Source: Petropleomorpha daqingensis (GTDB lineage: Bacteria; Actinomycetota; Actinomycetes; Mycobacteriales; Geodermatophilaceae). From it: a DNA stretch of 64,000 nt. Each line of letters starts with the position of its first letter. Within the stretch, counting starts at the first letter, position 1. The notes beneath the pieces were generated by a model. The model was not told the DNA's origin. It did no database searches and saw only the letters and a list, made by a program, of their open reading frames with translations. The stretch spans positions 1,550,001-1,614,000 of the forward strand of contig NZ_JACBZT010000001.1 of the NCBI RefSeq assembly GCF_013408985.1, given 5' to 3'. Below, piece after piece: positions 4,909-52,948 of this stretch. The position numbers and the translations under genes were made by a program.

Positions 4909-4915
4909 GCCCATC

Positions 4916-4958
4916 GCAGAAGTCGCGATTCCTGCCCGGCAGGAATCGCGACTTCTGC
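4916..4958. terminator. 43-base perfect palindrome downstream of alcohol dehydrogenase
   Basis: Two perfectly complementary 21-base arms around a single C, starting GCAGAAGTCGCGATTCC, seven bases after the stop of the alcohol dehydrogenase gene and before the Shine-Dalgarno of the next gene. It should form a very strong hairpin without a U-tract, the common actinobacterial terminator form. Confidence 0.75.
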
Positions 4959-4972
4959 CGTCAGGAGGTCCT

Positions 4973-15758: not shown

Positions 15759-15800
15759 GGTTTCGCGCGCTTGACCGCGCGCGGTTAAGCGCGCGAAACC
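15759..15800. repeat. 42-base near-perfect palindrome, copy 1 (gene-end hairpin)
   Basis: Begins GGTTTCGCGCGCTTG and ends AAGCGCGCGAAACC; 21-base arms pair with one G/A difference (a G-U pair in RNA) and no loop. It lies seven bases after the stop of the XdhC-like gene and upstream of the XRE promoter. An identical 42-base copy lies at 51731-51772 in the same strand orientation. Likely a terminator, but the exact duplication suggests a dispersed repeat. Confidence 0.85.
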
Positions 15801-15807
15801 ACGGGGG

Positions 15808-16929
15808 TCAGCGCTCGGCGGTGGCGTGGATGGGGCCCTCGATGCCGGACAGCCGCTCGCCGGACCCGCCCCACCGGCCGGCGATGATCTCCGCGGCGAT
15901 CGAGACGGCCGTCTCCTCCGGCGTCCGGGCGCCCAGGTCGAGGCCGATCGGCGAGGACAGCCGGGCGATCTCCTCCTTCGACAGGCCCGCCTCCTGCAGC
16001 CGCGCCAGCCGCTCCTCGTGCGTGCGCCGCGACCCCATCGCGCCGACGTAGGCGACCGGCAGCCGCAGCGCGACCTCCAGCAGCGGGACGTCGAACTTCG
16101 GGTCGTGGGTGAGCACGCAGAGGACGGTGCGCTCGTCGATCCGGCCGGCGTCGACCTCGCCCTGCAGGTAGCGGTGCGGCCACTCGACGATCACCTCGTC
16201 GGCGTCCGGGAAGCGCTTGGGCGTCGCGAACACCGGGCGGGCGTCGCAGACGGTCACCCGGTAGCCGAGGAACGAGCCGACCCGTGCCACCGCGGCGGCG
16301 AAGTCGATCGCGCCGAAGACCACCATCCGCGCCGGCGGCGCGAAGGAGTTCACGAACAGCTCGAGGTCGTCACCGCGGCGCTCGCCGTCGTGGCCGAAGT
16401 GCAGCATCCCGGTGCGGCCGGCGGCGAGCATGCCGCGGGCGTCGGCGGCCACGGCGTCGTCCATGCGCTGCAGGCCGAACGAGCCCGACGTGCGGTCGGG
16501 CCAGAGCACCATCCGCCGTCCCAGCCGGTCGTCGGGACCCTTCACGCAGGTGACGACGGCGACCGGCTCGTGCCGGTCGACGGAGTCCTTGATCTCCCCC
16601 AGCTCGGGGAACGACTCGCGGGAGACCGACTCGACGAAAACGTCGAGGATCCCGCCGCAGGTCAGCCCGACGGCGAAGGCGTCGTCGTCGCTCACGCCGT
16701 AGCGCTGCAGCGTCGCCTCGCCGGTCTCGACGGCGTCCTTGGCCTCCTCGTAGACCGCGCCCTCGACGCAGCCACCGGAGACGCTGCCCACCGCTGTCCC
16801 GTCGGGGCCGACCAGCATCGAGGCGCCGGCCGGGCGCGGCGCCGAACGCCACGTGGCGACGACGGTGCCCATCCCCACGGTCTGTCCCGCCTGCCACCAG
16901 CCGACCAGGTCGTCGAGCACGTCACGCAT
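15808..16929 (-). CDS. XdhC/CoxF-family molybdenum hydroxylase maturation protein
   Basis: A 373-residue XdhC/CoxI-family protein. VATWRSAPRPAGASMLVGPDG and SVSGGCVEGAVYEEA form the N-terminal XdhC domain with its conserved cysteine; LTCGGILDVFVE follows; the C-terminal half is a Rossmann domain (MVVFGAIDFAAAVARVGSFL) ending with the family signature VGAMGSRRTHEERLARL. XdhC proteins bind molybdenum cofactor, guide its sulfuration and insert it into xanthine dehydrogenase- or CO dehydrogenase-type enzymes. It follows coxE- and coxD-like genes on the same strand after a 62-base gap with a hairpin. No structural enzyme is adjacent. Confidence 0.88.
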   Translation of the reverse strand: MRDVLDDLVGWWQAGQTVGMGTVVATWRSAPRPAGASMLVGPDGTAVGSVSGGCVEGAVYEEAKDAVETGEATLQRYGVSDDDAFAVGLTCGGILDVFVESVSRESFPELGEIKDSVDRHEPVAVVTCVKGPDDRLGRRMVLWPDRTSGSFGLQRMDDAVAADARGMLAAGRTGMLHFGHDGERRGDDLELFVNSFAPPARMVVFGAIDFAAAVARVGSFLGYRVTVCDARPVFATPKRFPDADEVIVEWPHRYLQGEVDAGRIDERTVLCVLTHDPKFDVPLLEVALRLPVAYVGAMGSRRTHEERLARLQEAGLSKEEIARLSSPIGLDLGARTPEETAVSIAAEIIAGRWGGSGERLSGIEGPIHATAER

Positions 16930-20989: not shown

Positions 20990-21030
20990 CGGAGGCTGAG
21001 GAGCGAGGAAACCTCGCTCCTCAGCCTCCG
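20990..21030. terminator. Bidirectional terminator, 19-bp perfect stem
   Basis: CGGAGGCTGAGGAGCGAGG (20990-21008), loop AAA, then its exact complement to 21030. It lies between two convergent genes, right after the stop of the DUF3097 gene and eight bases before the end of the opposing reductase gene. Confidence 0.85.
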
Positions 21031-48187: not shown

Positions 48188-49666
48188 CTAGGCCCGGGAA
48201 CCCCCGAGCCGCGCCTCGGCGGCGTCCCACCCGGGACCGCTGCCCGGCGTCGGGCGGTACGTGCGCACCTCCTGCGTCGCGCACAGCAACGACCGAAGCT
48301 CGGCCAGTCCGCCGGCGAGCACCCCGGCGGCCCGGGCCTGCACCAGCGCGTTGCCCAGTGCGGCTGCCTCGACCGGCCCGGCGAGCACGGGGACACCGCA
48401 GGCGTCGGCGGTCAGCTGGCAGAGCAGGGCGTTGCGCGCTCCCCCGCCGACCAGGTGCACGACCTCGACCTCGCGGCCGGAGAGCTCCGCGGCGCGGCGG
48501 ACGGTGCGCCGGTAGGCCAGCGCGAGGCTGTCGAGGATGCACCGGACCGTCGCGGGCACGCTCTGCGGCGGGACCTGCCCGGTCTCCGCGCAGACCTGCG
48601 CGATCCGGGCCGGCATGTCACCCGGCGGCAGGAAGCGGGGGTCGTCGGCGTCGACCAGCGCCGTGAACACCGGCACCTGCGCCGCAGCGGCGAGCAGATC
48701 GGGCAGGTCGGCGGTGAGCCCGGATGAAGCCCAGGTGCGCTGCGACTCCTGGAGCAGCCACAGGCCCATGACGTTGTGCAGGTAGCGGACCGTTCCGTCC
48801 ACGCCCAGTTCGTTGGTGAACCCGGCCCGCCGGCTCTGCTCGGTCAGCACCGGCTCGTCCAGCTCGACGCCGACCAGCGACCAGGTGCCGCAGGAGATGT
48901 AGGCGAACCGGTCGGTGGACGCGGGCACGCCCACGACCGCCGAGGCGGTGTCGTGCGAGGCGACCGCGGTGACGGGGACTGGCCCGGCCAGGCCGGTCTC
49001 CGCCAGCACCTCAGCGGTGAGCTCGCCGATCCGCTCTCCCGGCCCGCGCAGCGGCGGGAAGAGGCCGCGCGGCAGGCCGAGCTCGTCGACGAGCTCCCAC
49101 GCCCACTGCCGGCTGGTCGCGTCGAGCAGCCCGGTGGTCGAGGCGTTGGTGAGCTCCGCGCCGACCGCACCGGTCAGCCAGTAGCCGAGCAGGTCGGGGA
49201 TCAGCAGGAGCGTGCGCGCGGCCTCCAGCTGGGCCGTCCCCCGTGCGGCGGCCAGCTGGAAGATCGTGTTGAACGGCAGGTGCTGCAGTCCGGTGGTCCG
49301 GTACAGCTCGTCCGGCGGGACGACGGCGTGCACCGCCGGTACCGCCGTCTCGTGCCGGGCGTCGCGGTAGTGCACCGGGTTGCCGAGCAGCACGCCGTCG
49401 GCGTCGAGCCGGCCGGTGTCCACCCCCCAGCTGTCGATGCCCACCCCGGCGAGCCGGCCGGCGTCCCGGCCCGCGGCGCGCAGCCCCTCGAGGATGCCGC
49501 CGTGCAGGGCCAGGACGTCCCAGTGCAGCGTGCCGCCGACGCGGACCGGCCGGTTGGGGAACCGGTGCACCTCGTGCAGGTCGAGGCGGTCCGGGCCGAC
49601 CCGCGCGGCCATGACCCGGCCGCTGGAGGCGCCCAGGTCGACGGCCGCGAAGGTCGTGCCGGTCAC
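48188..49666 (-). CDS. rhaB: L-rhamnulokinase
   Basis: A 492-residue FGGY-family sugar kinase. FAAVDLGASSGRVMAARV is the N-terminal phosphate motif, GVGIDSWGVDTGRLD the substrate region, TAVASHDTASAVVG and ISCGTWSLVGVEL the adenosine region, and VVHLVGGGARNALLCQLTADACGVPV the FGGY signature-2. DSWGVD and CGTWSL are typical of rhamnulokinases. It phosphorylates L-rhamnulose at O1. GTG 49666 overlaps the upstream aldolase stop (GTGA). Confidence 0.9.
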   Translation of the reverse strand: MTGTTFAAVDLGASSGRVMAARVGPDRLDLHEVHRFPNRPVRVGGTLHWDVLALHGGILEGLRAAGRDAGRLAGVGIDSWGVDTGRLDADGVLLGNPVHYRDARHETAVPAVHAVVPPDELYRTTGLQHLPFNTIFQLAAARGTAQLEAARTLLLIPDLLGYWLTGAVGAELTNASTTGLLDATSRQWAWELVDELGLPRGLFPPLRGPGERIGELTAEVLAETGLAGPVPVTAVASHDTASAVVGVPASTDRFAYISCGTWSLVGVELDEPVLTEQSRRAGFTNELGVDGTVRYLHNVMGLWLLQESQRTWASSGLTADLPDLLAAAAQVPVFTALVDADDPRFLPPGDMPARIAQVCAETGQVPPQSVPATVRCILDSLALAYRRTVRRAAELSGREVEVVHLVGGGARNALLCQLTADACGVPVLAGPVEAAALGNALVQARAAGVLAGGLAELRSLLCATQEVRTYRPTPGSGPGWDAAEARLGGSRA

Positions 49667-51699
49667 CGCAGGAACGCCGCCGCGACGCCGGAGTCCACCG
49701 GGATGTGCAGACCCGTCGTCCGGGTGAGCTCCCCGCCGGTGAGGGCGAGGACGGCGTCGGCCACGTGCTCGGGCAGCACCTCGCGCTTGAGCAGGGTGCG
49801 CTGGGCGTAGTACTGGCCGAGCTCCTCCTCGGGGACGCCGTAGACCGCGGCGCGCTGGGCGCCCCAGCCGCCGGCGAAGATCCCCGACCCGCGGACGACG
49901 CCGTCGGGGTTGATGCCGTTGACCCGGATCTGGTGCTCGCCGAGCTCGGCGGCCAGCAGCCGCACCTGGTGCGCCTGGTCGGCCTTGGTCGAGGAGTACG
50001 CGATGTTGCTCGTCCCGGCGAAGACGGAGTTCTTGCTGGAGATGTAGACGATGTCGCCGCCGAGACCCTGCTCGATCATGATCCGGGCCGCCTCGCGGGA
50101 GACCAGGAAGCTGCCCTTGGCCATGACGTCGTGCTGCAGGTCCCAGTCGGCCTCCGTCGTCTCCAGCAGGGGCTTGGAGATCGACAGGCCGGCGTTGTTG
50201 ACCACCAGGTCGACGCCGCCGAAGGCGAGCACCGCCTCGCGGAAGGCCGCGGCCACCGCCTCGGCGTCGCTCACGTCGGCCGCCACGCCGACGGCGACGT
50301 CGGTGCCACCGATCTCGGCGGCGGCGTCCCGGGCCTTGTGCAGGTCGAGGTCGGCGACGACGACGCAGGCGCCCTCGCGGGCCAGCCGCTGCGCGATGGC
50401 CTTGCCGATCCCGCTCGCCGCGCCGGTGACCAGGGCGACGCGGGTGGCCAGCGGCTTCGGCTTCGGCATCCGCTGGAGCTTGGCCTCCTCGAGCGCCCAG
50501 TACTCGATGCGGAACTTCTCGGCCTCGTCGATCGGCGCGTAGGTGCTGACCGCCTCGGCGCCGCGCATGACGTTGATGGCGTTGACGTAGAACTCGCCGG
50601 CCACACGGGCGGTCTGCTTGTCCTTGCCGAAGCTGAACATGCCGACCCCGGGCACCAGGACGATCGCCGGGTCCGCACCGCGCATCGCGGGGGAGTCCGG
50701 GGTGGCGTGCCGCTCGTAGTAGGCGGCGTACTCGGCGCGGTACTCCTCGTGCAGAGCGTGCAGCCGGGCCACGGCCTCGTCGAGCGGCGCCGTGGGCGGC
50801 AGGTCGAGGACCAGCGGGCGCACCTTCGTGCGCAGGAAGTGGTCGGGGCAGGACGTGCCCAGCGCCGCCAGCCGCGGGTGCTCGCTCGCGGCCAGGAACT
50901 CCAGGACGACGTCGGCGTCGGTGAAGTGGCCGACCTGCGGCTTGTCGGTGCCGGCCAGCCCGCGGATCACCGGCGCCAGGGCGGCCGCGCGGATCCGGCG
51001 CTCGGCCGGCGCCAGCGGCTCGAACCCGGGCAGCGGGGCGCCGAAGGGTTCGGCCTTCCCGCGCTCGGCGAGGAACCGCTCCGCCGTCCGGATGATCTCG
51101 AGGCTGTTGGCCTCGCACTCCTCGCTGGTCTGCCCCCACGCGGTGATGCCGTGGCCGCCCAGGATGCAGCCGATCGCCTGCGGGTTCTTCTCGGCGATCG
51201 CGGCGATGTCCAGGCCCAGCTGGAAGCCGGGACGGCGCCACGGCACCCAGACGACGCGTTCGCCGAAGCACTCGCGGGTGAGCTGCTCGCCGTCCTCGGC
51301 CGTGGCCAGGGCGATGCCGGAGTCGGGGTGCAGGTGGTCGACGTGCGGCGCGGTCACCAGGCCGTGCATCGCGGTGTCGATCGACGGGGCGGCGCCGCCG
51401 CGGCCGTGCAGGCAGTAGTCGAACGCGGCGACCATCTCGTCCTCGCGCTCGACGCCGGGGTAGACGTCGACGAGGGAGCGCAGCCGGTCCAGCCGCAGGA
51501 CGGCCAGGCCGCTCTCCGTCAGCGTGCCGAGGTCGCCGCCGGAGCCCTTGACCCAGACCAGCTCGACCGGCGTGCCGGTGACCGGGTCGGTCTCGGTGCC
51601 CTTGGCGGAGGTGTTGCCGCCGGCGTAGTTGGTGTTGCGCGGGTCGGCGCCGAGCCGGTTGGACCGGCCGATCAGCTCACTGACCACGGGGTTCGTCAC
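49663..51699 (-). CDS. rhaEW: Bifunctional rhamnulose-1-phosphate aldolase / lactaldehyde dehydrogenase
   Basis: A 678-residue fusion. The N-terminal 410 residues are a class II aldolase (LGADPRNTNYAGGNTSAKG, TAPHVDHLHPDSGIALA, CILGGHGITAWG metal-binding His). The C-terminal 255 residues are a short-chain dehydrogenase: RVALVTGAASGIGKAIA, LVVNNAGLSISKP, YISSKNSVFAG, and YSSTKADQAH with the catalytic Tyr and Lys. Known proteins of this fusion (RhaEW type) split L-rhamnulose-1-phosphate to DHAP and L-lactaldehyde and oxidise the latter to L-lactate. GTG 51699 follows the 42-base palindrome downstream of rhaI. Confidence 0.92.
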   Translation of the reverse strand: MTNPVVSELIGRSNRLGADPRNTNYAGGNTSAKGTETDPVTGTPVELVWVKGSGGDLGTLTESGLAVLRLDRLRSLVDVYPGVEREDEMVAAFDYCLHGRGGAAPSIDTAMHGLVTAPHVDHLHPDSGIALATAEDGEQLTRECFGERVVWVPWRRPGFQLGLDIAAIAEKNPQAIGCILGGHGITAWGQTSEECEANSLEIIRTAERFLAERGKAEPFGAPLPGFEPLAPAERRIRAAALAPVIRGLAGTDKPQVGHFTDADVVLEFLAASEHPRLAALGTSCPDHFLRTKVRPLVLDLPPTAPLDEAVARLHALHEEYRAEYAAYYERHATPDSPAMRGADPAIVLVPGVGMFSFGKDKQTARVAGEFYVNAINVMRGAEAVSTYAPIDEAEKFRIEYWALEEAKLQRMPKPKPLATRVALVTGAASGIGKAIAQRLAREGACVVVADLDLHKARDAAAEIGGTDVAVGVAADVSDAEAVAAAFREAVLAFGGVDLVVNNAGLSISKPLLETTEADWDLQHDVMAKGSFLVSREAARIMIEQGLGGDIVYISSKNSVFAGTSNIAYSSTKADQAHQVRLLAAELGEHQIRVNGINPDGVVRGSGIFAGGWGAQRAAVYGVPEEELGQYYAQRTLLKREVLPEHVADAVLALTGGELTRTTGLHIPVDSGVAAAFLR

Positions 51700-51730: not shown

Positions 51731-51772
51731 GGTTTCGCGCGCTTGACCGCGCGCGGTTAAGCGCGCGAAACC
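51731..51772. repeat. 42-base near-perfect palindrome, copy 2 (gene-end hairpin)
   Basis: Identical base for base to 15759-15800, again starting GGTTTCGCGCGCTTG, and again just past the stop of a leftward gene, here six bases after rhaI. The only asymmetric base is in the same strand orientation in both copies. Confidence 0.85.
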
Positions 51773-51778
51773 GCGGGA

Positions 51779-52948
51779 TCAGGCGCCCCAGCCGGCCTGC
51801 TGGCCGCCGACGCGCTCGCGGGCGATGCGCTCCTGGTAGCCGGAGCGGGCGTAGGCGGCGTACGGGTCGGGCTCGAGGCCCTTCGACTCGCGCAGCTCGG
51901 CCAGCAACGGCCGGACGTCGGTGTTGTAGGCGTCCATCAGGACGCCGTTCGCGGCCAGCACGTCACCGGACCGCTGGGCCTCGCGCAGCGCTTCGCGGTC
52001 GACCAGCAGCGCCTTCGCGGTCGCCTCCTGGACGTTCTGCACCGAGCGGATCTGGCCGGGGATCTTCGGCTCGATGTTGTGGCACTGGTCGAGCATGAAG
52101 TTGACGCCGGAGTCCGGGCGCAGCGCGTCGGCGGCCACGATCTCGTTCATGATCCGGAACAGCTGGAACGGGTCCGCGGACCCGACGATGAGGTCGTCGT
52201 CGGCGTAGTTGCGGGAGTTGAAGTCGAAGGCGCCCAGCCGGCCGGCCCGCAGCAGCTGCATGACGATGAACTCGATGTTCGTCCCGGGCGCGTGGTGGCC
52301 GGTGTCGAGCACGACCTGCGCCCGCTCGCCGAGCGCGAGGCAGTGCAGCAGCGAGGTGCCCCAGTCGGGGATGTCCATCGCGTAGAAGTACGGCTCGAAG
52401 AACTTGTACTCGATGAGCAGCCGGTGCTCGGGGTCCAGCAGCGCGTAGATCTGCTGCAGCGAGTCGGCGAGCCGGTCCTGGCGGGCGCGCAGGTCGTCCT
52501 GGCCCGGGTAGTTGGTGCCGTCGGGCAGCCAGAGCTTGAGGGCGGTCGACCCGGTCTGCCGCATGACCTCCACGCACTGCGCGTGGTGGGCGATCGCCTT
52601 GGCGCGCACCCGCTGGTCGGGGTGGGTCAGCGAGCCGAGCCGGTAGTCGTCGTCCTGGAACAGGTTGGAGTTGATCCCGCCGATCTGCACGCCCAGGTCA
52701 GCCGCGTGCGCGGCGAGCTTGCCGTAGTCCTCGACGAGGTCCCACGGGATGTGCAGCGAGACCCGCGGCGCGACCCCCGTGTAGCGGTGCACCTGGGCGG
52801 CGTCCTCGAGCTTCTCGAACGGATCGCGCGCCACACCGGGCTGGCCGAACACCTTGAAGCGGGTGCCGGAGTTGCCGAACGCCCAGGAGGGCAGCTCGAT
52901 CGTCTGCGCGGCCAGGGCCTCGAGGGCGCGGGCACGGAGGTCGGTCAC
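51779..52948 (-). CDS. rhaI: L-rhamnose isomerase
   Basis: A 389-residue TIM-barrel isomerase of the RhaI (Pseudomonas/Streptomyces-type) group. Key segments are SLHIPWDLVEDYGKLAAHAAD, GINSNLFQDDDYRLGSLTHPD, LKLWLPDGTNYPGQDD, LIEYKFFEPYFYAMDIPDWG (metal-ligand Glu), VLDTGHHAPGTNIEFIVMQLL (Asp and His ligands) and FDFNSRNYADDDL. It converts L-rhamnose to L-rhamnulose. GTG 52948 is chosen because similarity begins at once. First gene of the leftward rhamnose operon, divergent from the LacI regulator. Confidence 0.92.
   Translation of the reverse strand: MTDLRARALEALAAQTIELPSWAFGNSGTRFKVFGQPGVARDPFEKLEDAAQVHRYTGVAPRVSLHIPWDLVEDYGKLAAHAADLGVQIGGINSNLFQDDDYRLGSLTHPDQRVRAKAIAHHAQCVEVMRQTGSTALKLWLPDGTNYPGQDDLRARQDRLADSLQQIYALLDPEHRLLIEYKFFEPYFYAMDIPDWGTSLLHCLALGERAQVVLDTGHHAPGTNIEFIVMQLLRAGRLGAFDFNSRNYADDDLIVGSADPFQLFRIMNEIVAADALRPDSGVNFMLDQCHNIEPKIPGQIRSVQNVQEATAKALLVDREALREAQRSGDVLAANGVLMDAYNTDVRPLLAELRESKGLEPDPYAAYARSGYQERIARERVGGQQAGWGA

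Follow-up and report, generated by a model that had tools for sequence, protein, structure and literature searches.

The window, that is, the whole stretch of DNA analyzed here, covers 64,000 nucleotides (bases 1,550,001-1,614,000) of the single 5,376,835-base contig of Petropleomorpha daqingensis (genome of 5.38 Mb, termed G000). Within it, the 42-mer GGTTTCGCGCGCTTGACCGCGCGCGGTTAAGCGCGCGAAACC occurs at 15759-15800 and again at 51731-51772, with no mismatch and in the same orientation, a repeat for which dinucleotide shuffles give no expectation by chance. The first-pass annotation had reported this exact recurrence 36 kb apart, and it is borne out at both coordinates. The copies had also been described as loopless, near-perfect palindromes with an asymmetric G, and this is accurate: the arms are 21 and 21 bases long, and G15/T28 is the single non-complementary pair. 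Exactly these two window copies, and no other copy in the genome, carry the one-sided G variant.

Each copy is found at the 3' end of a leftward gene. The first, a doublet of what we term the A family, comprises an 18-nt unit (15759-15776), the linker GCGCGC (15777-15782), and an inverted unit (15783-15800), and starts 7 nt beyond the stop codon of an open reading frame encoding an XdhC/CoxI-family protein (15808-16929, minus strand; Pfam PF02625/PF13478). The second, identical doublet is 6 nt beyond the stop of an L-rhamnose isomerase-like gene, rhaI (51779-52945, minus strand; open reading frame supported by PF06134 and orthologues), and is followed by a gene named from its sequence as a bifunctional rhamnulose-1-P aldolase/dehydrogenase-like gene (49663-51699, minus strand). 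Both distances agree with the 6-7 nt noted earlier.

A second family of A-like architecture is present within the window: the F family, with a doublet at 4915-4959 formed by the 22-mer GGCAGAAGTCGCGATTCCTGCC with a 23-bp period, 7-8 nt past a stop codon. Elsewhere on the contig, a single F-type palindrome, GGCAGAAGTCGCGACTTCTGCG, lies in frame within a large regulator-like gene (L054, position 3374430). The window also contains a 41-nt hairpin, CGGAGGCTGA.GAGCGAGGAAACCTCGCTC.TCAGCCTCCG, at 20990-21030; it has a near-identical counterpart at contig position 313291, both being at convergent gene ends, and a partial one at 1847357.

A dispersed palindrome family placed at gene ends

Using a covariance model together with a direct scan of fetched DNA, we found a total of 57 copies of the 42-mer in the genome at 0-7 mismatches from one palindrome, most of them at 3 or fewer (about 50 places), so the case of only two copies, considered in the first-pass annotation, is ruled out. 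Their scores are separated by a sharp gap from any weaker sequence, and degenerate copies do not trail off below them. Their consensus, GGTTTCGCGCGCTTAACC-GCGCGC-GGTTAAGCGCGCGAAACC, is perfectly palindromic, and because of this structure we take the real unit to be the 18-mer GGTTTCGCGCGCTTAACC, two inverted units and a 6-nt linker making up the 42-mer. The same 18-mer is also arranged in about six direct arrays with a 24-bp step (500348, 1455314, 1944633, 2111072, 2836386, and 3634326). Outside this core, the palindromy continues weakly as GY...RC; aligned copies end GY-GGTTT...AACC-RC, and the GTAG/CGTC tetranucleotide is absent at the foot of the unit. Comparison of the flanks of the aligned copies, as proposed earlier, revealed no apparent target-site duplication.

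The genome holds several such families. Doublets of the B family (GCTTTATCGCGATAAAGC), with the structure B-ACGCGT-B and a 24-bp step, are 42 bp long and palindromic like those of A, and some arrays mix A and B units. Three near-identical 61-65-bp hairpins (AGGCATGGGAAGCGATAC...) at 595153, 777347, and 817953 lie between convergent genes, touching or overlapping their stops. A further dispersed family, consisting of TGATCAGGTGACCTGATCA and a CTGTCC..GGACAG hairpin, was seen at 1266769 and 4980949.

The placement of the A copies is strict. Mapped against gene 3' ends, at least 49 of the 57 doublets have a stop codon no more than 15 nt from their start, in windows that amount to about 2% of bases; for 25 of them, this holds for both genes of a convergent pair. 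Their contexts, with genes outside annotated records called by a simple codon-usage caller, are convergent for 31, tandem for 23, and scored divergent for 2; one "divergent" doublet (2835408) in fact provides the stop codon of the preceding gene. The median gap between convergent genes is 52 nt with the element and 7 nt without it, as would be expected if 42-46 bp had entered a minimal gap. More generally, 41 of 47 long palindromes were intergenic in 1.42 Mb sampled mostly evenly over the genome. One A copy is located inside a gene: a direct doublet reads in frame through a linker of E2 (dihydrolipoamide acyltransferase), just ahead of RIPIKGVRKHT.

As RNA, the A doublets fold into hairpins of -31.6 to -35.7 kcal/mol (z of -5.4 to -6.4), so a stable RNA hairpin directly follows the stop, as in a terminator. 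It is unlikely, in our judgment, that the copies are ordinary bidirectional terminators held identical by selection or gene conversion. Strong hairpins that follow genes or separate convergent ones are what such terminators would look like; however, most other 3'-end hairpins of this genome have a sequence found only once, and the A sequence is not common to relatives. Direct arrays and single 18-mers fold far more weakly than inverted doublets and, together with the in-frame copy, are left unexplained by termination. One-sided changes in tandem contexts, though few, gave 9 A-C and 4 G-U pairs in the transcript, the opposite of what constraint on the RNA would leave. Covariation at the RNA level was rejected, since these changes show no preference for G-U. 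Bidirectional termination by the A copies, as predicted from their folding, is plausible as a side effect.

The regular spacing bears on another explanation. Unit steps are 23/24 or 33/34 bp in nearly every case, for A, B, and other families of this genome and for those of relatives described below, and one turn of B-DNA separates the two classes, suggesting that a protein recognizes the duplex. Such dyad units, with only these periods, could be target sites of a chromosome-organization protein (matS-, parS-, or BIME/gyrase-like) selected on duplex DNA. The distribution along the chromosome points the same way, 73% of the A, B, and array loci being in the half opposite coordinate 0 (p ~5e-5, uncorrected for the location of dispensable genes), but this bias may only mirror that location. 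Against it stands the turnover seen here, where one species differs from the next in the entire sequence; binding sites for proteins of this kind normally stay the same throughout a family. We regard this explanation as quite improbable.

Homologous sites in relatives

The A family is specific to this lineage, with 0 copies in 40 relatives. Across 84,980 species genomes, the sole match to a relaxed 42-mer pattern was a 3.8-kb soil contig of an 'Arthrobacter' metagenome-assembled genome (L020, JAODMA010000444.1). This contig looks chimeric: an A-type palindrome lies in its bases 1-405, between the ends of a pirin-like and a transporter-like gene, and these bases are unlike the remainder. These first ~405 bases most likely come from an unsampled relative of this organism.

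Relatives have, in equivalent positions, palindrome families that are built alike but unrelated to A. The rhaI junction is a bare gap of 21-22 nt with no element in three g6 genomes; in other relatives, it contains a direct doublet of GTGCAGAACCGCCATTCCGCAC (motif C), a doublet of GCTTTCGGTACCGAAAGC (motif E), or a unique hairpin. Both motifs are themselves dispersed in their genomes: C, in 34-bp doublets, amounts to 98 units in G018 and 44 in G070 (two g11 genomes), and E to 22 units in G012 (genus g2), and neither was found in most congeners. C doublets, too, are located at gene ends, with 24 of 24 loci intergenic. The E2 linker behaves in the same manner. Its direct A doublet in G000 is replaced by C doublets in G069 and G070 and by other palindromes in G060, G071, and G074, and in several relatives the linker is shorter and devoid of palindrome. 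The same tolerated site was thus filled independently, which argues that insertion takes place everywhere and copies survive where they are harmless, and against terminator function as the driver.

The earlier ideas of recent copying and of a REP/MITE-like element, as regards a dispersed one, are supported by the 57 near-identical copies, their absence from relatives, and the homologous sites that are empty or differently filled. Overall, the earlier interpretation of the 42-mer is partly supported; the several families per genome, the species-specific turnover with retained architecture, and the linked gene described below are patterns beyond its view.

A DUF559 gene bracketed by the family of its own genome

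REPs are abundant, but to our knowledge HUH transposases are the only enzymes known to move them, and REP families without one are a puzzle. The Y1/RAYT transposase (PF01797) was absent from G000 and nine relatives, with positive control genomes, and such an enzyme is thus rejected as partner of the A family, being missing in all 10 genomes. Spread by phages or plasmids was also rejected: viral contigs had no match, and the DUF559 protein of this genome (see below) was not found there, apart from one weak phage hit.

We searched for genes bracketed by A copies. Between an A doublet and a four-unit A array lies a gene (2835504-2836392) whose 295-aa product matches DUF559 (PF04480) with 30.8 bits, and that of its orthologue in G070 with 30.3 bits, against a gathering score of 20.6; the adjoining units are one-base variants of the A consensus. 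The G070 orthologue is bracketed by two C doublets. In G018, two C doublets with a spacing of 1.06 kb led us to predict the gene, which was then found. The palindromes flanking the gene hence match the dispersed family of each genome, A in G000 and C in G070 and G018. In these three genomes the locus is syntenic, following a NUDIX-like gene, and the DUF559 proteins are 57-66% identical, versus 70-94% for the shared neighbors (two short peptides being at the low end), which indicates that the gene was inherited in place and evolves fast. It is a single-copy, vertically inherited candidate partner flanked by its genome's own repeats.

Across 11 divergent members, S195, E198, D230, E241, and G244 are invariant. 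The profile matches PDB 3hrl, an endonuclease-like structure, and weakly 3r3p (a mobile intron protein of homing endonuclease type) and Vsr. Based on the conserved acidic residues and these profile matches, the protein is likely a nuclease, its C-terminal part being likely a Vsr/EDxHD-like PD-(D/E)XK domain. Some members have an N-terminal AbiEi_4 winged helix; others match AbiEi_4 alone or fall just under the gathering score of PF04480.

In order to generalize, we took 16 DUF559-type genes from G000, G070, G018, Tsukamurella, Arthrobacter, and Nonomuraea and, for each, scored the preceding 300 nt against the 300 nt that follow. In 14 of them the similarity score was 49-91, versus a maximum of 46 among 852 control genes of G000 and of 37 among 38 control genes of Tsukamurella; matching hairpins on both sides were seen at 14/16 DUF559 genes and at 0/852 controls (Fisher p ~1e-28). 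Three of the 16 loci (in G000, G070, and G018) came from regions that had been selected for repeats, or from their vicinity, and most others did not; among DUF559 genes found irrespective of repeats (in plasmid records and evenly spaced stretches), 9 of 10 scored at least 49. The flanking hairpins differ between DUF559 genes. Two of those in Tsukamurella are dispersed in that species only, at 12 and 20 places, with all 6 copies checked being at gene 3' ends, and the Arthrobacter hairpin occurs at 7 places on one megaplasmid.

Several observations accompany this survey. The TGATCAGGTGACCTGATCA family flanks a second DUF559-type gene in G000 (L219, 3758.8-3759.8 kb), and a DUF559 gene of G070 (L277) has a related form on its flanks. 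A motif CTGTGGA(C/T), in either orientation, is present ~30-85 nt before the start of 12 of the 16 DUF559 genes and of ~14 of the 852 controls; it lies, as CTGTGGAC/CTGTGGATAAC, past the upstream palindrome and ahead of the start codon (L045, L251, L263, L265, L267, L269, L277, L278, and others), and in sequence it resembles a DnaA box. The 'plasmid' records of Tsukamurella tyrosinosolvens NCTC13231 (L261, L264, L266, L268) carry housekeeping genes (purB, purC, gatA, and pntB) and look like chromosome pieces filed as plasmids. A gene of G001 located between two E doublets (L140) was considered as a second DUF559 case and discarded, as by eye it appears polysaccharide-deacetylase-like.

The role of the protein is open to a different reading, in which the palindromes are REP-like and mobile but are moved by an unrecognized transposase or by host repair, DUF559 proteins being passengers or regulators; indeed, the protein could be a passenger or host control protein instead of a mobilizer. 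Among the fetched B-family copies, none has a DUF559 gene within 2 kb, and the fetched DNA gave no DUF559 partner for the E and F families. Flanking repeats are lacking at 2 of the 16 DUF559 genes (L244 and L262), and the gene is stably syntenic. Stable synteny is, however, also typical of RAYTs (PMC8049555). Moreover, the association spans proteins that are 24-59% identical and unrelated repeats in four or more genera, and the repeats on the flanks correspond to the family dispersed in the genome concerned, both of which argue against a mere passenger, so that we hold this reading to be rather doubtful. We found no paper that links DUF559 to palindromic or repetitive DNA in the literature searched, which proves no absence.

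A probable REP-like element with a candidate nuclease partner

REPs and REPINs are inverted doublets or arrays of short palindromes that occur in tens of species-specific copies near stops, mostly between convergent or tandem genes, with occasional in-frame copies in genes (PMC3733652, PMC8049555, PMC6006769), and their RAYT is a single vertically inherited gene flanked by its own repeat family (PMC8049555, PMC6006769). The A family resembles REPs as a short palindromic repeat with tens of extragenic copies near 3' ends, and REPINs or REPtrons in its two inverted units, to which it adds direct arrays. It differs from them in lacking the GTAG/CGTC tag and a Y1 (HUH) transposase, and its units are more regular than REPs (18-22 nt, with a period of 23/24 or 33/34 bp). 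In place of the RAYT of a REPtron stands a Vsr-like PD-(D/E)XK nuclease (DUF559), whose inheritance in place and own-family flanks are as described for RAYTs and REPINs (PMC8049555, PMC6006769).

Other known systems are less close. The BIMEs of Escherichia coli are likewise found at gene 3' ends as mosaics of palindromic units in head-to-head and direct arrangement, but differ in sequence and unit length. CGTC-tagged REPs without a known transposase (PMC3733652) are also dispersed palindromes without a dedicated HUH transposase; they belong to other phyla, whereas A has no CGTC tag and has a candidate partner gene. MITEs are similarly small, non-autonomous, and bounded by terminal inverted repeats; in contrast, A is only 42 bp long and shows no clear target-site duplication, and no parent IS with A ends was found in the portion of the genome screened. 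On the protein side, Vsr and the EDxHD homing endonuclease I-Bth0305I (3r3p) share a weak profile match and conserved acidic residues with DUF559, which differs by its extra N-terminal region and by its link to palindromes on its flanks, not to dcm or an intron.

Taken together, we consider that the A 42-mer is probably a non-autonomous REP/REPIN-like element, with the DUF559 nuclease as its candidate partner, spread by copying to ~57 places. The nuclease would recognize the palindromes and drive their copying: it would bind the dyad units and nick or cleave both these and receptive sites, into which the palindrome would then be copied by repair or replication. Copies would survive almost only where they are harmless, that is, directly after stops (mainly of convergent pairs) or in a flexible protein linker, a placement that would reflect purifying selection, perhaps in addition to site preference. 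Once in place, a copy would form a strong hairpin that may act as a bidirectional terminator. Protein and palindrome would drift together, giving each species its own family.

For the wider proposal, we see even chances: that DUF559/Vsr-like nucleases mobilize a large undescribed REP-like class in Actinobacteria, as an analogue of the REPtron with PD-(D/E)XK instead of HUH, with such rapid co-evolution of nuclease and palindrome that nearly every species ends up with a family of its own. If this is true, DUF559, an abundant family of unknown function, would gain a role, and another chemistry by which tiny DNA elements are copied would become testable. The species-specific gene-end hairpins of many actinobacteria would also be given an origin, and annotators would be alerted that, in such genomes, mobile repeats account for many 'terminators'.
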